Source: a virus. From it: a stretch of DNA of 47,786 nt. A program made the position numbers and the translations under genes. Shown in pieces: positions 4,544-40,182 of the stretch; within the stretch, counting starts at the first letter, position 1; every line of letters begins with the position of its first letter. Below the pieces are notes generated by a model that ran no database searches, had not been told where the DNA came from, and saw nothing but the letters and a program-made list of their open reading frames with translations. The stretch is from positions 1 to 47,786 of IMG/VR virus record IMGVR_UViG_3300032893_000083, one strand, 5' to 3'.

Positions 4544-4977
4544 TGACCAGATGCTCCGTCGATCAGCCTCACCGCATCATACTGCGTAGTGAGCGTATAA
4601 CTCGCGCTGCCGTCGATTGTATCCGTTCCATATGCCACAATCACTACCCCAAATGGGTTAGAATCCAGTTTCTTCACAATAAGAATCGTACCGCTTCCCG
4701 TCGATTGTCCAAGGTTTATGGTTTGCGCCTCCGTTGTGGATGCCGACGCACCGATGAATGTATCGGTCGCTTGGACCGCGTAGGGCGATTGGGTCGGGGA
4801 ACTGACGTTGAAGATGCCGAATCCACGAACAATCGTTGAAAGATATGTTTGCAACTTCTGAATAAGCGATTGAAGATACTGGTCGTTTTGCCTGAATCCA
4901 TTGGCGATATCCTGCCATGCTCGCGGGAGTTTCGTAGGCTTCGGGGGCTGAAATTGCGGATTTTGCGGGTAGGGCAC
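4528..4977 (-). CDS. Tail-associated structural protein
   Basis: 149 residues from a GTG at 4977. I prefer this start because GGGAGG lies 11 bases upstream (4989-4994); a TTG at 4998 in frame would add 7 residues. The N-terminus is Pro/Gln-rich, followed by a helix (FRQNDQYLQSLIQKLQTYL) and a beta-rich Ser/Thr/Gly domain (TINLGQSTGSGTILIVKKLD), as in small fibre-like or appendage proteins. It follows the nozzle gene and overlaps the GNAT-like gene by 16 bases. The specific role is unknown. Confidence 0.65.
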   Translation of the reverse strand: MPYPQNPQFQPPKPTKLPRAWQDIANGFRQNDQYLQSLIQKLQTYLSTIVRGFGIFNVSSPTQSPYAVQATDTFIGASASTTEAQTINLGQSTGSGTILIVKKLDSNPFGVVIVAYGTDTIDGSASYTLTTQYDAVRLIDGASGQWSIW

Positions 4978-4978
4978 G

Positions 4979-6400
4979 TCACACTTCGCCTCCCACAAAC
5001 AAGCTCACGTCGCCCTGCGTAATCTCACATTGGGAATAGAAATCCAGCCGGAACCGCTGCAATCGCGCTGTATTTACCAAGTTAATCCAACCATCCGTGG
5101 AGATGGGGAATTGTCCATTACTGACCGGAGTTGTCCCCGCCACATATTGGTTAAGAGGCGTACAGATTACCGGGGCTGGGGCGCCCGATGGGGTGCTTGG
5201 ATAGGTCTGGAATCCCGGTCGTATCCGATTGCACGAATACATGGAATGCCGATCCCCGAAGTCTTGAGATGTGATGTAGCAGCCGCCAGCAAATACCGAC
5301 GAATTCAAGTAATCGTACCCATAAAGGCTGTGATCCCTGAGCGCCACGCCCGATATGGTCGTCGCTCCCGCTTGGCTGGAATCTCCCGTCAGTCCCACCA
5401 AGGGCAGGTCGATATTCAATCGCCCGAATCCCCACGCTCCCGTTCTCCGATACCAGCAAACGTAGCTATCAAGGCTCCCGCGCGGACTGGCATTCTTGCT
5501 CGGATAATGCCAAAACACCATATCGTTTTGCAGGTCGAATCGCCCCGCCGCATTCTGCAAGTACGGCACATCGGCGTCCGTGTTGAAAAACCATTCTTTG
5601 ATGTGATTGGGGATCGGATTTAGGTTGTATCCATCGAACACCCAGAAATCGTCCGGTCCCAAGATGTAGTGATAATCGCCCGCATTTACCACGCACTCAT
5701 TGCCGCGAGCGCCAATCGTAGTCGATACAATCGCCGTGGACCATCCAACCAGACCGCCTGTAAATGTTCCAAAGTGCAGGGCATTCTGCTTGTATAGCGC
5801 CACCCCAGACCGTAGCCGATGCACCGCCGTAATGTTCCCCGCCGTAGAATCAAGTTGATTCACATAGACCTGAGAGGCCGCATCTGGTGCCCACGAAGCC
5901 GTCGCGGATAGATTGCTGTAGAAAAGCTGCGAATTCGGGGGCACTAGAATCAGGTTGTAGTCTGTCATCTCGCACAATGCGGAAATCGGAGCCTGTACCC
6001 CGCCTAGCGTTGGCAGCAATAAGGCAAACTGGCCTGTCGCAAGGGAATAGTAGTAGGGATACGCTACCCCATTGACGGCTACCAAGTACTGGCCGTCCGC
6101 CGTGAAGCGCCAGCGGTTTCCCATGTTCGGGATGCCACCAATCTGATTCGCAAATTGATAATTACTGTCCGCGATATAGAGAGTATCCGCCGTAGCTCCG
6201 GCAAGGACCGGCGTAGCAATCAAGAGCGCCGATGCCATCCCCAACACGGAGCCTTGCAAGGCGTTGGAGATTCGTCCCAGTGCGGGCATCGTCCGAAAGC
6301 CTTTCTCGGTAGGCCAGACATTATTGCAATCCGTGACTACCCCCGGCGTAGTCGAATCTTTATCTGGAGCGTAATCCATCCATGTCAACGGGGTTTGCAT
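4979..6400 (-). CDS. Tail nozzle / P22 gp10-like beta-propeller protein
   Basis: 473 residues, strongly beta-rich with many aromatic and Asn/Asp-Gly turns (ADGQYLVAVNGVAYPYYY, HYILGPDDFWVFDGYN). The repeated pattern of short strands ending in D-G-x-x resembles the beta-propeller of podovirus tail nozzle proteins (P22 gp10, T7 gp12). It begins MQTPLTWMDYAPDKD, matching the type of start seen in these proteins. It lies just after the adaptor candidate, the usual order. It overlaps the small gene upstream by 16 bases. Assignment rests on fold pattern, size and synteny, without a search. Confidence 0.6.
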   Translation of the reverse strand: MQTPLTWMDYAPDKDSTTPGVVTDCNNVWPTEKGFRTMPALGRISNALQGSVLGMASALLIATPVLAGATADTLYIADSNYQFANQIGGIPNMGNRWRFTADGQYLVAVNGVAYPYYYSLATGQFALLLPTLGGVQAPISALCEMTDYNLILVPPNSQLFYSNLSATASWAPDAASQVYVNQLDSTAGNITAVHRLRSGVALYKQNALHFGTFTGGLVGWSTAIVSTTIGARGNECVVNAGDYHYILGPDDFWVFDGYNLNPIPNHIKEWFFNTDADVPYLQNAAGRFDLQNDMVFWHYPSKNASPRGSLDSYVCWYRRTGAWGFGRLNIDLPLVGLTGDSSQAGATTISGVALRDHSLYGYDYLNSSVFAGGCYITSQDFGDRHSMYSCNRIRPGFQTYPSTPSGAPAPVICTPLNQYVAGTTPVSNGQFPISTDGWINLVNTARLQRFRLDFYSQCEITQGDVSLFVGGEV

Positions 6401-21600: not shown

Positions 21601-22002
21601 CTACCCCGCCACGCAGAAGCCGCATTTCGGGTCGGCCCTATGCGGATGGCGGACACAACCTGCCAGCTTAGGCCTGGAGCCGACGGCTGGAGTCGAACCA
21701 GCAACCTGCCCGTTACGAGTGGGATGCTCTACCGTTGGAGCTACATCGGCGTGAGAAGGATCAACGGGCGTTGCCCAGGCCTGGATGCAGTCCCGAACTG
21801 CTCGCGTAGCAGTCGCGACCTGTGTTTTCACAGCCGCCCGCTCATCCTTCTCGGCCCATCGCTTCCTCGCCATCGCCTGCGCTACCGGGTCCGGATAGCA
21901 TCGGCACGTCTTACAGTGCTTCTCAGGCATATGCGCATGGTACGCTTCTGCGCATATGCGGTCAAGCGCTTGTGCGCTGCTGCCTAACTGCTTCAAAGCC
22001 AT
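21601..22002 (-). CDS. Uncertain open frame reading through the tRNA gene
   Basis: 133 residues from the ATG at 22002 (AGGGG upstream), or 139 from a GTG that directly follows the stop of the upstream gene. It has Cys clusters (KHCKTCRC, and CGFC near the end). The 3' part crosses the tRNA-Thr, so residues like VAGSTPAVGS only reflect the T arm. Either a small zinc-binding protein ending in an odd extension, or no gene at all. Confidence 0.3.
   Translation of the reverse strand: MALKQLGSSAQALDRICAEAYHAHMPEKHCKTCRCYPDPVAQAMARKRWAEKDERAAVKTQVATATRAVRDCIQAWATPVDPSHADVAPTVEHPTRNGQVAGSTPAVGSRPKLAGCVRHPHRADPKCGFCVAG
21675..21750 (-). tRNA. tRNA-Thr (anticodon CGU) with encoded CCA
   Basis: Minus-strand cloverleaf of 72 bases plus U73 and an encoded CCA. 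Acceptor stem GCCGATG/CGTCGGC (7 pairs, one G-U), D arm GCTC/GAGC with an 8-base loop, anticodon loop CTCGTAA, variable loop AGGTT, T arm GCTGG/CCAGC with loop TTCGACT. The anticodon stem is imperfect (only three C-G pairs; mismatches at 27-43 and 31-39). Thr identity follows from the CGU anticodon. An open frame reads through the gene on the same strand. Confidence 0.82.
21927..21959. repeat. 33-bp inverted repeat, operator-like
   Basis: GCATATGCGCA (21927-21937), 11-base spacer, TGCGCATATGC (21949-21959): perfect 11-bp arms, each itself rich in palindromic ATGCGCAT. A 10-bp palindrome CAAGCGCTTG follows at 21963-21972. No U-run, so not a terminator. It could bind a dimeric regulator at the boundary between the late operon and the mixed-strand region. 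Confidence 0.55.
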
Positions 22003-24970: not shown

Positions 24971-25450
24971 ATGGCTGAATTTATCATTAAAAGCTACTTG
25001 GACTTGGACGCGGAATTGTACCGCTGTGAAGCTGCGAGTCAAAAAGCAGCGGTTGAACAAGCAGTCAATCGCGGCGCGGACCTGTACGGCGCGGACCTGT
25101 ACGGCGCGGACCTGCGCGGCGCGAACTTGTGCGGCGCGAACCTGTGCGACGCGAACTTGCGCGACGCGAACCTGTACGGCGCGAACCTGTACGGCGCGAA
25201 CCTATACGGCGCGAAGCTGTGCGGCGCGAACCTGTGCGGCGCGAAAGGCATCCATACCATAGAGGGCGGCAAAGACTCGCGTAATTACGAGTTTCGCGCT
25301 ATCGAACTGCCCGACGGCTGGCGTATCAGTGCCGGTTGCCGATTTTTCACGCTCGACAAAAGCAAAAAGCACTGGCGCAATAACCCCGAATGCGCGGCCA
25401 TCGTCGCCAAGCTGATTGCTGAAACCGAAAAGCTGGATGCGGAGGGCTGA
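24971..25450 (+). CDS. Pentapeptide-repeat protein
   Basis: 159 residues. Residues about 36-90 are eleven consecutive pentapeptides of the A-(D/N/K)-L-x-x type ([15 protein letters not shown]), predicted to fold as a right-handed beta-helix. The C-terminal 65 residues contain [20 protein letters not shown], a small domain often attached to such repeats in phages. Known members (Qnr, MfpA) mimic DNA and protect or inhibit gyrase; most phage members have no known role. The repeats are nearly identical 15-bp units in DNA, suggesting recent expansion. Confidence 0.85.
25074..25245 (+). repeat. Tandem 15-bp repeats inside the pentapeptide gene
   Basis: About eleven units close to GGCGCGAACCTGTAC with changes mainly at two codons. 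Copy number could vary between isolates by slippage. Confidence 0.75.
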
Positions 25451-34881: not shown

Positions 34882-34890
34882 AAAGGTGCG

Positions 34891-34961
34891 GTGAGCGTGG
34901 GCTAACGGTAAGTCATTCGGCCTGTACCCGAAGGACGCCGGTTCGACTCCGGTCGCTCACC
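34891..34961 (+). tRNA. tRNA-like gene, anticodon UGU (Thr) with unusual C33
   Basis: Cloverleaf of 70 bases: acceptor GTGAGCG/CGCTCAC (7 perfect pairs), D arm GGCT/AGTC, anticodon stem TTCGG/CCGAA (5 perfect pairs) with loop CCTGTAC, a 4-base variable loop, T arm GCCGG/CCGGT with loop TTCGACT. Base 33 is C where nearly all tRNAs have U. No CCA is encoded (CTTG follows). A G at 34890 could extend the acceptor by one pair. Confidence 0.68.
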
Positions 34962-35055
34962 TTGTGCACGCCCAATAAATTCACGTGCTTTTCTTTTATA
35001 GCAGGGCGCCGAAATAATGACAACCGTCAAGAGAAAACCGCAGTCTCGTCCATTG

Positions 35056-37376: not shown

Positions 37377-37405
37377 TTGACACCGCTGGTTCTTTTTGTC
37401 AAAGT
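37377..37405 (+). promoter_or_regulatory. Plus-strand promoter and operator-like repeat of the array locus
   Basis: TTGACA (37377-37382), 17 bases, CAAAGT (37400-37405; 3 of 6). TTGACA and TGTCAA (37397-37402) form inverted half-sites. The -10 ends 6 bases before the ATG at 37412, so the mRNA may be leaderless. Confidence 0.48.
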
Positions 37406-37411
37406 ACGCGC

Positions 37412-37576
37412 ATGGACAGACACACAACCTATCAGGTGAAGGTGCGGATGCCCGTCGAACTACATAAACGGCTCCGTGTATGGGGCGCGACACAGGAACC
37501 ACCTTTGAGCGTTCCAAAGGCCGCGCTCAAGTTGCTCGACAAAAACACGCCGCAAAACGGCCAGAGGGAGAAATAA
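37412..37576 (+). CDS. Arc-like ribbon-helix-helix regulator
   Basis: 54 residues. YQVKVRMPVELHKRLRVWGA, then SVPKAALKLL matches the Arc/Mnt ribbon-helix-helix pattern (strand with alternating residues, M-P-x-E-L, two helices). Such proteins are dimeric DNA-binding repressors. No ribosome site is seen, and the promoter is very near, suggesting leaderless translation. Its stop overlaps the ATG of the RAMP-like gene (TAATG), so it is probably the regulator of the array locus, acting on the inverted half-sites upstream. Confidence 0.72.
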   Translation: MDRHTTYQVKVRMPVELHKRLRVWGATQEPPLSVPKAALKLLDKNTPQNGQREK

Positions 37577-38409
37577 TGAAATCGAAAACGAAAACTGTAA
37601 CAAACGAGACGATTCAAGTTCTGCGGCTGGAAATGAGCCAACTGCATTTCTGCATTCTCGGTCAAAGCCCGCTCATCTACAATGCGGTCAGCGAGAAAGC
37701 GAAACACGAACTGCTCTATCCGGGTGGCCGCAAGAGCGCCGTCGAACGCGCGGGCAATCTCAAGCATCAACCGCTCGATGAATACCGCAATTCCACCTAC
37801 CAGTTTGCCGATGATGAACAGCCGAGCAAGCCGGTGACACGCCTATTCGTACCCGGCGCAATGTTCAAGGCGGCGATGGCGACCGCCGCACTCGACATCG
37901 AAGGGATCAAGAAGACGGAACTGGAACGGCTCTTGTGGGTCGAACCCCGTAAGATTCCGGTATTCGGGGTTCCGCAACTCTTGATGAGCATCACCCGTTC
38001 CAGCGACATCAATCGGACACCCGATGTTCGCACCCGCGCTATCCTTCCCGAATGGGCGTGTTTCGTCACGGTCAATTTCGTCCGTCCCAAGCTCAATGAG
38101 ACTTGCGTGGGCAATGTGCTGGCGAGCGCCGGAATGATTTGCGGCATTGGCGACTGGCGGCAACAGAAGGGGTCGGGCGATTATGGCCGCTTTGAAATCG
38201 TCGCCAAGGATAACCCCGCTTTCGTCCGGCTGACAAAAACTACCGGACGGGAAATTCAAGATCGCGCATTAGCTGCTCCATCAGCATTCGATTTAGAAAC
38301 AGAACGATTGCTGAATTGGTTTCAAGATGAAACGAAAAAGCGGGGGCAACATCTAAACGGCGCTACCCCAAAAGTGGACTCGGCAGGCCAAGTTACGGCT
38401 ATTGATTAA
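37576..38409 (+). CDS. RAMP/Cas7-like protein next to non-coding arrays
   Basis: 277 residues from the ATG at 37576 (TAATG with the RHH gene; AGAGGGAG upstream). After an initial strand (VLRLEMSQLHFCILGQSPLI) come RLFVPGAMFKAAMATAA (89-105), which resembles the hydrophobic-Pro-Gly-x-x-hydrophobic-Lys-x-A motif of RAMP proteins, DVRTRAILPEWACFVTVNFV (150-169) and a late glycine-rich segment, GIGDWRQQKGSGDYGRFEI (190-208), like the RAMP G-rich loop G-x-G...G-x-G/Y-G-x-F. RAMP folds (Cas7, Cas5, Csm3) bind RNA along the guide. No nuclease residues are obvious. The gene has no cas neighbours; it is followed by the period-5 array. I read it as an RNA-binding RAMP-like protein, with the function unproven. 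Confidence 0.6.
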   Translation: MKSKTKTVTNETIQVLRLEMSQLHFCILGQSPLIYNAVSEKAKHELLYPGGRKSAVERAGNLKHQPLDEYRNSTYQFADDEQPSKPVTRLFVPGAMFKAAMATAALDIEGIKKTELERLLWVEPRKIPVFGVPQLLMSITRSSDINRTPDVRTRAILPEWACFVTVNFVRPKLNETCVGNVLASAGMICGIGDWRQQKGSGDYGRFEIVAKDNPAFVRLTKTTGREIQDRALAAPSAFDLETERLLNWFQDETKKRGQHLNGATPKVDSAGQVTAID

Positions 38410-38424
38410 ATATACTTTAGCCGC

Positions 38425-38930
38425 AATGGAAAGATACGGTGCGATACGGTCGGTTGAGGTGTGTTCAGGTGAGATCGGATGAGGCCGCCTTGGTTGGGTC
38501 TGTTACGGTCCTCTCAGGTGGGTTGCGGTATGGAAAGGCCGCTTTGGACAGGACGCGCAAGGAGCGTTTAGGTGCGGATTGGTAGCGTTAGGCCGCTTTG
38601 GTTGGGTGTGAAAGATTCGGAATGGACTGCTCCGGTCTGGCCGCTCAGGATAGGACGAGTCAGGACAGGAAATGAAAGTTCTGGTAGGTCTGGCCGATAT
38701 GATCTGGAGCTTCGAGATAGGAACGGTCAGGAATGGCAGCGTATGATCGGTCGCGGTAACGCCGATATGGAGAGGCAGTGTGGGGTTTGTTCGGATGCGA
38801 TTCGGTGAGCAATGGTCGGGCTGCTGAGATGCGATTCGATGGCGTGCGGTCGAATCGGGTCGGGTAAGTTAACGCCGCTCAGGTATGGAAGATCAGGCAT
38901 GTAGCGGTCTGATTAGGTTCGGCAGGTGAT
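38425..38930 (+). repeat. Non-coding period-5 G array 1 (about 500 bp)
   Basis: No plausible gene lies between 38410 and 38947. In the first 170 bases a G recurs every fifth base: of 23 lattice positions from 38428 to 38538, 19 are G, and from 38547 to 38592 another 9 of 10, with many of these followed or preceded by a second G. The three bases between are variable. The rest keeps the same look with shifts of one or two bases. Some units recur (AGGCCGCCTTGGTTGGGT at 38482 and, with one change, at 38590), but there are no exact long repeats, spacers or palindromes. The plus strand is rich in G and poor in C. Confidence 0.8.
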
Positions 38931-38947
38931 AACAAAGGAGATCGAAA

Positions 38948-39424
38948 ATGGACAAGTTGATAATTGTAAAGGAACTGACAAGGATCGAGGATAGCGAAGG
39001 CCGCTTGACGCCCGATGCGGTAGTCAAGGCGGCGCAAAGCCCGAAAAGCCCGCTGCATCGGTTTTTCGAGTGGGACAATACAGAAGCGGCGCGGAAGTAC
39101 CGCATTGAACAGGCGCGCGAGCTAATCCGCGAAGTGCGAATCGAAATGACCGTCCACGAAAAGACGATCCAGACGGTCGCCTACGTCCGCGATCCTTCCG
39201 CGCCGCCAAACCGACAAGGTTATCGTAGCGTTGTGAAGTTGGCCGATGAACGGACCGAGGCGTGGACGGCAGTAGAAGCCGAATTTCAACGGGCGTTAGG
39301 GGCATTGCGGCGGGCGCGCGACATTGCCACGGCACTAGACTTTGCTGACGAAATCGACCGCCTGCTGACCGATTTGACTAATCTCAGCGGGACACTTGGC
39401 GAGAAAGTAAAACTCGCCGCTTAA
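38948..39424 (+). CDS. Conserved-looking phage protein between the two arrays
   Basis: 158 residues with AAAGGAGATCGAAA before the ATG. GRLTPDAVVKAAQSPKSPLH, then RFFEWDNTEAARKYRIEQAR is a pattern (L-T-P-x-A-V-V-x-A-A...S-P-L-H-x-x-F-E-W-D) that I have seen in phage proteins of unknown function. The middle is beta-type (MTVHEKTIQTVAYVRD), and the C-terminal part is helical (FQRALGALRRARDIATAL). It is flanked on both sides by the G-lattice DNA, so it may be a partner of the RAMP-like protein or the array RNA. No enzymatic residue is evident. Confidence 0.7.
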   Translation: MDKLIIVKELTRIEDSEGRLTPDAVVKAAQSPKSPLHRFFEWDNTEAARKYRIEQARELIREVRIEMTVHEKTIQTVAYVRDPSAPPNRQGYRSVVKLADERTEAWTAVEAEFQRALGALRRARDIATALDFADEIDRLLTDLTNLSGTLGEKVKLAA

Positions 39425-39440
39425 GATTGCCATTATGCAA

Positions 39441-39600
39441 TCTGGTCAGATTTGGGCCGTCAGATTAGGCAAGAATTGGAGCGGTCGGGCCGCTATGGAG
39501 TGGTATCGTGGCATAAGTTCTGGCGGGGCGTCATAAGGCCGCTGAGATGACGACAGGATGGGCGAGTTTTGGAATAGTGCGGAAAGGTAAGGACAGAAAG
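39441..39600 (+). repeat. Non-coding period-5 G array 2 (about 160 bp)
   Basis: Between two genes on the plus strand. G occupies 444, 449, 454 and 459 (added to 39000), then after a one-base shift 463, 468, 473, 478, 483, 488, 498, 503 and 508, that is 13 of 14 lattice points. The same C-poor, GG-rich style continues to the ribosome site of the next gene at 39599. Confidence 0.75.
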
Positions 39601-39611
39601 GAGAATTGACC

Positions 39612-39851
39612 ATGGTAACTGAAAGCAGGATACCGCCTGCGCCGGACCTCGGAGCGGAGTTTCGGGCGAAGGGCAACAAGGACCACGCCATCGGCAAAGC
39701 CCGCTGCGACCTGAACGTGCTGATTGGCGAGTTGGACATGGCGGCAACCGATATGATCTGGGGTGACACCCCCAAGCGGCCCATTGCCGACATCAAGGCG
39801 GATTGCGACCGGGCGTATGCGGCGTTTATGGAAACGGTCACGCGGGCGTGA
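39612..39851 (+). CDS. Small hypothetical protein
   Basis: 79 residues from the ATG at 39612 with AGGAG 8 bases upstream. Helical (KARCDLNVLIGELDMAATDM, then ADIKADCDRAYAAFMETVTR). It ends V-T-R-A-stop, written by copy 10 of the 14-bp motif. It lies directly after array 2 and may belong to the same transcript. No family is recognised. Confidence 0.65.
   Translation: MVTESRIPPAPDLGAEFRAKGNKDHAIGKARCDLNVLIGELDMAATDMIWGDTPKRPIADIKADCDRAYAAFMETVTRA
39838..39851 (+). repeat. Dispersed 14-bp motif, copy 10
   Basis: TCACGCGGGCGTGA, perfect six-base arms; its TGA is the stop codon of the gene, and the next ATG is 5 bases further on. Confidence 0.72.
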
Positions 39852-39855
39852 GACC

Positions 39856-40182
39856 ATGACCCAACTATCCCTACTCGACCGTCCCGCGCCGTCGCGCCCC
39901 CTTCACGCGCTAGCCGACCCGCCCACGTCGCGGCTGGCGGCAAAGGCGCTGGTAGCCTCTGGCGCTTGGGGCAAGCAGGCGCAAGCGGTTCTAGACCTCG
40001 TGCGGGAGCATCCGGGACTTACGGCAGGGGAGTTGGCGCTGGCGAGCGGCGGGCGTTTCGACCGCTATCAGGTGGCGCGTCGGCTGAGCGACCTGCTGGC
40101 GAAGGGAGAGGTGGAACAAGTAGGAACGCGCGCCTGCACGATCAGCGGAAAAGTGTGTGTGACATGGATAACGTGGAAATAG
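39856..40182 (+). CDS. Winged-helix protein
   Basis: 108 residues from the ATG at 39856. QAVLDLVREHPGLTAGELAL, then FDRYQVARRLSDLLAKGEVE and a beta wing (GTRACTISGKVCVTW) form the standard winged-helix pattern known from many phage proteins. It probably binds DNA as a regulator. It overlaps the next gene by 19 bases. Confidence 0.72.
   Translation: MTQLSLLDRPAPSRPLHALADPPTSRLAAKALVASGAWGKQAQAVLDLVREHPGLTAGELALASGGRFDRYQVARRLSDLLAKGEVEQVGTRACTISGKVCVTWITWK

Follow-up and report, generated by a model that had tools for sequence, protein, structure and literature searches.

A probable VIPR guide array beside a predicted RAMP-fold gene in an uncultivated phage genome

Introduction

Between two plus-strand genes of the virus record IMGVR_UViG_3300032893_000083 (IMG/VR), an uncultivated phage whose 47,786 nucleotides are referred to here as the window, lies a stretch of about 500 non-coding nucleotides in which guanines recur at nearly every fifth base, and the question raised by this locus is what such a stretch could encode. 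A preliminary description made from the letters of the sequence had proposed a helical protein coat along RNA or a transcribed array of guides whose variable segments are discontinuous. The stretch, array R1, is located at 38419-38930 on the plus strand and consists of ~103 cells in nine units. R1 is very probably the vrRNA guide array of a phage-encoded Viral Interference Programmable Repeat (VIPR) system. The earlier guess of a guide array is thus supported as essentially right, and transcription and targeting at this locus are suggested by analogy with the published system.

A 2026 preprint (PMC13142463 / bioRxiv 2026.04.26.720920) describes VIPR as a phage-encoded, CRISPR-related system of RNA-guided DNA binding that is composed of the RAMP homolog Vipr, accessory (vap) genes, and vrRNAs of 9-16 YNNGG repeats. 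The NN dinucleotides of a vrRNA, which alternate with GGY motifs, jointly specify the DNA with one nucleotide skipped per repeat, resulting in noncontiguous recognition. Vipr binds the vrRNAs and represses their targets, which are mostly competing phages and satellites, and certain guides are aimed at other VIPR systems. The studied example is the type II system of Escherichia phage SUSP1, and an invariable structured 3' tail following the repeats is given for the SUSP1 clade. VIPR is proposed as an ancestral relative of CRISPR and employs a gapped RNA code.

Periodicity and cell structure of the array

Spectral analysis of 38411-38930 determined that the G signal peaks with a power of 39.7 at a period of 4.86 (4.86-4.87 at the level of the cells), far above 2000 dinucleotide-preserving shuffles of the sequence, which had a mean of 5.6, a maximum of 15.9, and no value as high. 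The power of GG in the same region is 29.5, which was also reached in 0 of 2000 dinucleotide shuffles, and the GG autocorrelation features lags of 5, 10, 14-15, 19-20, 24, 29, 34, and 39, corresponding to a period slightly below 5. The strong periodicity and the many GG pairs reported in the preliminary description are confirmed, as is the G-rich and C-poor character of the plus strand (202 G and 92 C in 538 nt), but the spacing is not exactly five. The earlier count of 28 G at 33 lattice points in 38428-38592 did not hold, and the best phase of a rigid five-base lattice gives 21 of 33. Such a lattice drifts across R1: each of the regularly occurring 4-nt cells shifts the phase by -1 nt, and it is this step per unit that places the period, 4.87, below 5.

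A segmentation that permitted cells of 4, 5, or 6 nt resulted in nearly all cells being 5 nt long. The first and second positions of the cell are G in 86% and 61% of cases, the third is T (.62), A (.22), or C (.16) and never G, and positions 4 and 5 are close to free, giving a consensus cell of G-G-T/A/C-N-N. Three variable bases had been described between the guanines; two of these are free and the third is constrained, so that the discontinuous segments of the proposed guides are 2 nt rather than 3 nt long. The description was right in treating the region as a non-coding array; the start is at ~38419 rather than 38425, and a second array was missed. R1 ends at 38930, immediately ahead of the Shine-Dalgarno sequence of the downstream gene. 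BLASTN of the R1 region against the phage collection gave no match, and Rfam searches of 37400-40000 gave nothing up to E=1.

The Vipr protein and its partner

The gene immediately upstream of R1 (37480-38409, plus strand) is predicted from profile and fold comparisons to encode an RNA-binding protein of the Vipr family with a RAMP/Cas7 fold, 309 aa long from the first ATG. The product matches phrog_4652 (E=1.3e-15), a family with a function listed there as unknown. A profile of 69 relatives (A3) matches chain D of PDB entry 36pp, 'SUSP1 Vipr protein', with E=2.2e-13, and the same vipr-family profile recovers the vipr gene in the SUSP1 genome at 1.7e-16, where it is adjoined by GG lattices. 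Pfam and NCBIfam searches with the vipr family returned nothing real. The AlphaFold2 model of the protein, which has a mean predicted local distance difference test (pLDDT) score of 79.6, matches Csm3 and other Cas7-type RAMPs in Foldseek (E down to 4e-6), and its alignment to Csm3/Cas7 subunits by VIA-align reaches Z values of up to 10.1 over ~155 residues. Besides the conserved core, at approximately residues 50-244, this protein has an N-terminal stretch and a helical C-terminal extension of its own. It features a G-loop-like motif, GIGDWRQQKGSGDYG, with invariant G218, G222, R227, and G236, and the GxGDWR..G motif is conserved in the vipr family. The idea of a protein coat that advances along RNA in steps, with one base anchored at each, is right in kind, given a neighbour of the RAMP/Cas7-fold Vipr family.

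The protein fold is shared with the RAMPs of type III and related CRISPR systems (Csm3, Cmr, type VII), as is the principle of a guide RNA carried on a backbone of repeating protein units. The systems differ in their step, which is 6 nt in CRISPR type III and 5 nt here, and in the guide information, which at this locus is held in separated dinucleotides. A CRISPR-Cas type III locus was considered and rejected, since no equal repeats and no other recognised cas gene are found alongside; the absence of equal repeats also agrees with the earlier statement that R1 is not a CRISPR array. The neighbouring genes either fall into phrog families whose function is unknown or match nothing, and there is no cas gene among those scanned.

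The gene downstream of R1 (38948-39424, plus strand) encodes a mostly helical, vap-like accessory protein of 158 aa that matches phrog_15946 (E=1.5e-19), for which the function is likewise listed as unknown. The model of this partner protein has a pLDDT of 95.6, and a PDB search with it gave no clear match. The partner was not matched to vap1-6, and its profile does not match SUSP1 vap1 in the SUSP1 pieces searched.

Conservation of the lattice in related loci

Relatives of both genes co-occur in Gordonia phages, mycobacteriophages, a cyanophage, and many uncultivated phages, and the phrog_15946 partner adjoins vipr in most loci. All of the relatives inspected first have a GG lattice beside the genes, with sequence that is otherwise unrelated. 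In a survey that required a power of at least 14 and a period of 4.78-5.12, 76 of the 86 viral loci carrying both genes proved to have a lattice near these genes and on their strand; among the remaining lattices, one is near the genes on the other strand and three are distant, two on the plus and one on the minus strand. This threshold misses weak arrays such as that of locus L003, in which the period is nonetheless kept, at 4.88, despite a differing sequence. In bacterial genomes, a lattice is present in 13 of 18 having the partner gene and in 18 of 32 without it. The arrays are located upstream of, between, or downstream of the genes, depending on the phage.

Several individual loci were recorded during the survey. 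Pseudomonas phage LESphi2 of P. aeruginosa (L010, 3230-3590) carries GG-lattice arrays beside a vipr relative, with a different second gene. Distant vipr relatives occur in Caldilineaceae, Dehalococcoidia, Boseongicola, and other genomes (L113-L142), many with a lattice just downstream and most without the phrog_15946 partner, which is present in L128; these are probably other VIPR types. The guide arrays of Gordonia phages UmaThurman (L005, 4571-4894) and Pipp (L008, 4557-4826) are publicly annotated as the hypothetical protein genes gp40 and gp43, and both annotations are probably artefacts. GG repeats with a period of 6, close to the VIPR loci in L048 (3241-3480) and L025 (3940-4200), look like Gly-Tyr-rich coding repeats. 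Additionally, L003 features a ~9-nt tandem repeat (ctgcaactt/ctgcgactt) at 4950-5070, near the start of an open reading frame just downstream of the VIPR genes.

Units and punctuation of the guides

The 4-nt cells of R1, referred to as commas where they open a unit, recur every ~9-14 cells and are mostly GGCC or a variant of it, followed by GC or GA. Unit 0 (38419-38482, 64 nt) consists of the comma AGCC and 12 cells. Units 1 (38483-38536) and 2 (38537-38590) are both 54 nt long and each consist of the comma GGCC and 10 cells, with NN being TT TG CT AC CC CA GG GC AT AA in unit 1 and TT CA CG AA GC TA GC TT AG TA in unit 2. The comma GGCC also opens unit 3 (38591-38638, 48 nt), which has 9 cells of which one is 4 nt long, unit 4 (38639-38691, 53 nt), which has an additional 4-nt cell close to its end, and unit 5 (38692-38759, 68 nt), in which the comma is followed by GATAT and another 4-nt cell lies inside. 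Unit 6 (38760-38818, 59 nt) has the comma CGCC and 11 cells, unit 7 (38819-38872, 54 nt) has GGCT and 10 cells, and unit 8 (38873-38930, ~57 nt) begins with CGCC and reaches into the ribosome-binding site of the downstream gene. The lengths of units 0-7 are 5n-1, or 5n-2 where there is an extra 4-nt cell, and units span 9-14 cells, within the VIPR range of 9-16 repeats per guide.

The same layout is found in the family. The 102 arrays analysed comprise 4754 5-nt cells and 501 4-nt cells, with GGCA accounting for 375 of the latter. The 5-nt cells are composed of G (.95), G (.87), Y (.89), and two near-uniform positions, and successive 4-nt cells are mostly separated by 8-13 cells with a mode of 10-11. 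In the surroundings of 467 clean commas from 75 loci, ordinary cells have a within-locus identity of 0.24-0.30 at NN, as freely varying positions would give. The identity rises to as much as 0.33 immediately before the comma, and the cell after it begins with G[G/T]C and has a slightly constrained NN (0.36-0.38). The fourth base of the comma is A in.77 of the 467; commas were chosen by their first three bases, and independent evidence therefore comes from the fourth base and the following cell.

The 4-nt cell, GGCC here and usually GGCA elsewhere, probably marks guide ends or a processing point. A more specific reading is offered tentatively, as one that could well prove wrong: this clade would pack many gapped guides into a single continuous array, punctuated solely by a cell one base short (GGCA, or GGCC/GGCG). 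Together with the G[G/T]C that follows, this cell would form a 7-nt handle, read by Vipr or a processing enzyme, that fixes the phase and the length (8-13 cells) of the guides. The comma is not mentioned in the main text of the preprint, although its layout may be the same as the preprint's staggered arrays with overlapping vrRNAs (fig. S18).

Assignment to VIPR and alternative explanations

The locus combines Vipr homology with a predicted RAMP fold, GGY/NN cells with hypervariable NN, guide lengths in the VIPR range, and carriage by a phage, the window being a virus record with terminase, portal, and major head genes. Vipr proteins are characterised by a RAMP/RRM fold with a G-loop, and VIPR systems occur for the most part in phages or proviruses. 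It has in common with SUSP1 a phage-encoded RAMP-fold Vipr beside a small accessory gene and non-coding pentanucleotide GGY/NN cells on the gene strand, with ~9-16 cells per guide. There are several differences. Each SUSP1 guide is a discrete ~100-nt RNA that has flanks of its own together with a structured tail, whereas those of the window form a head-to-tail chain with 4-nt commas. The accessory gene of SUSP1 is different from phrog_15946, and in the cells of the window T predominates at the third base and the second G is looser.

By comparison with the published system, the plus strand of R1 would be transcribed, and its RNA would be bound by the Vipr protein encoded just upstream, presumably as a ribonucleoprotein with one subunit per 5-nt cell in which GG(Y) is held and the two variable bases are presented. 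Approximately 9-14 cells would make up one guide, and guides in this clade would be strung head to tail with a 4-nt cell between them. The expected target of the combined dinucleotides is the double-stranded DNA of a competing phage, prophage, or satellite, with which they would pair while skipping one target base per cell, and target binding would lead to repression, assisted by the 158-aa partner.

Some observations weigh against this assignment. Gapped searches for exact NN patterns with a 1-nt skip gave no convincing target for the window guides: units 0, 1, 2, and 6 have no match in the viral contigs scanned, and unit 1 has none in the genome contigs scanned. The single match of unit 7, in L146, fails at the tenth cell, its skipped base is not at the wobble position, and it is probably due to chance. 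A structured 3' tail like that of SUSP1 was not recognised at this locus by eye or as an Rfam match. Additionally, R1 is looser than the family average, with the second G present in 61% rather than 87% of cells and an extra -1 slip in three of eight units, and it could be partly decayed.

Searches with the guides of relatives bear on the skip rule more generally. Guides of relatives in Aureimonas and Paraburkholderia gave nothing convincing against several hundred genomes. A local test of 390 guides with skips of 0-3 placed skip 1 slightly ahead through one 19/20 match, which is too weak to prove the 1-nt-skip rule in this clade. That match is between a guide of L054 (~3570) and the vipr gene of the related phage L081 (~3453), with 19 of the 20 positions agreeing at skip 1; this agrees with the preprint's remark on guides against other VIPR systems and is weak evidence alone.

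The looser lattice is also what would be expected if R1 derived from a VIPR guide array now in decay, from which working guides are no longer made. This explanation is unlikely: the slips are nearly all -1, with few if any 6-nt cells, whereas random insertions and deletions would yield slips in both directions, the phase is maintained over 500 nt beside intact vipr and partner genes, and some other arrays with intact genes, such as that of L003, are loose too.

The gene that directly follows R1 has a good ribosome-binding site, which would suit a protein-binding leader, where a ring protein would read one base per 5 nt to control that gene. TRAP RNA, the model for such an attenuator, contains 11 NAG triplets ~5 nt apart, and R1 resembles it as a single-stranded RNA that would be read at a base every ~5 nt. 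The protein folds differ, the neighbour being a RAMP/Vipr rather than TRAP, and the constant part of R1 is GG followed by T/C/A, with G excluded at position 3, rather than NAG; a TRAP-binding leader was rejected on this basis. The variable position of the arrays relative to the genes among phages also argues against a leader, which is very unlikely here. That the periodicity is a functionless by-product of tandem duplication or composition bias is scarcely credible, although some R1 units have 10-21 nt of similarity in common, since Tandem Repeats Finder reported no repeat in R1, no shuffle reached the signal, and the lattice recurs with different sequence beside the same genes in unrelated phages. 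A vrRNA guide array is the reading retained for R1.

Other features of the window

A second, shorter guide array, R2, is located at 39430-39605 on the plus strand, just after the partner gene. It was segmented into cells like R1 and has GGCC commas at 39488 and 39537, and GGCCGC sites are present. Its G period is 4.9 (0 of 2000 dinucleotide shuffles; 6 of 2000 for GG), a weaker signal than that of R1. The strongest other period-5 signal in the window, at 25071-25245, is a coding 15-nt tandem repeat with the consensus GCGGCGCGAACCTGT, and the open reading frame that contains it (24971-25450) looks like that of a pentapeptide-repeat protein. The window also has two tRNA-Thr genes, at 21675-21750 (minus strand) and 34890-34962 (plus strand), with the anticodons CGT and TGT, respectively.

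Implications

VIPR itself was described in 2026, and the window provides an unlabelled example of it in an uncultivated phage, found by a reader of raw sequence, which indicates that such arrays can be spotted without homology. The survey, with ~100 arrays and 467 clean commas in 75 loci, provides a grammar for multi-guide arrays. Such a grammar would allow the ends of guides to be recognised from nothing but the sequence, so that targets could be decoded and processing could be tested. The comma-punctuated layout may be a variant worth naming. If the 7-nt handle is real, this clade would use a compact multi-guide format that is absent from the main text of the VIPR preprint.
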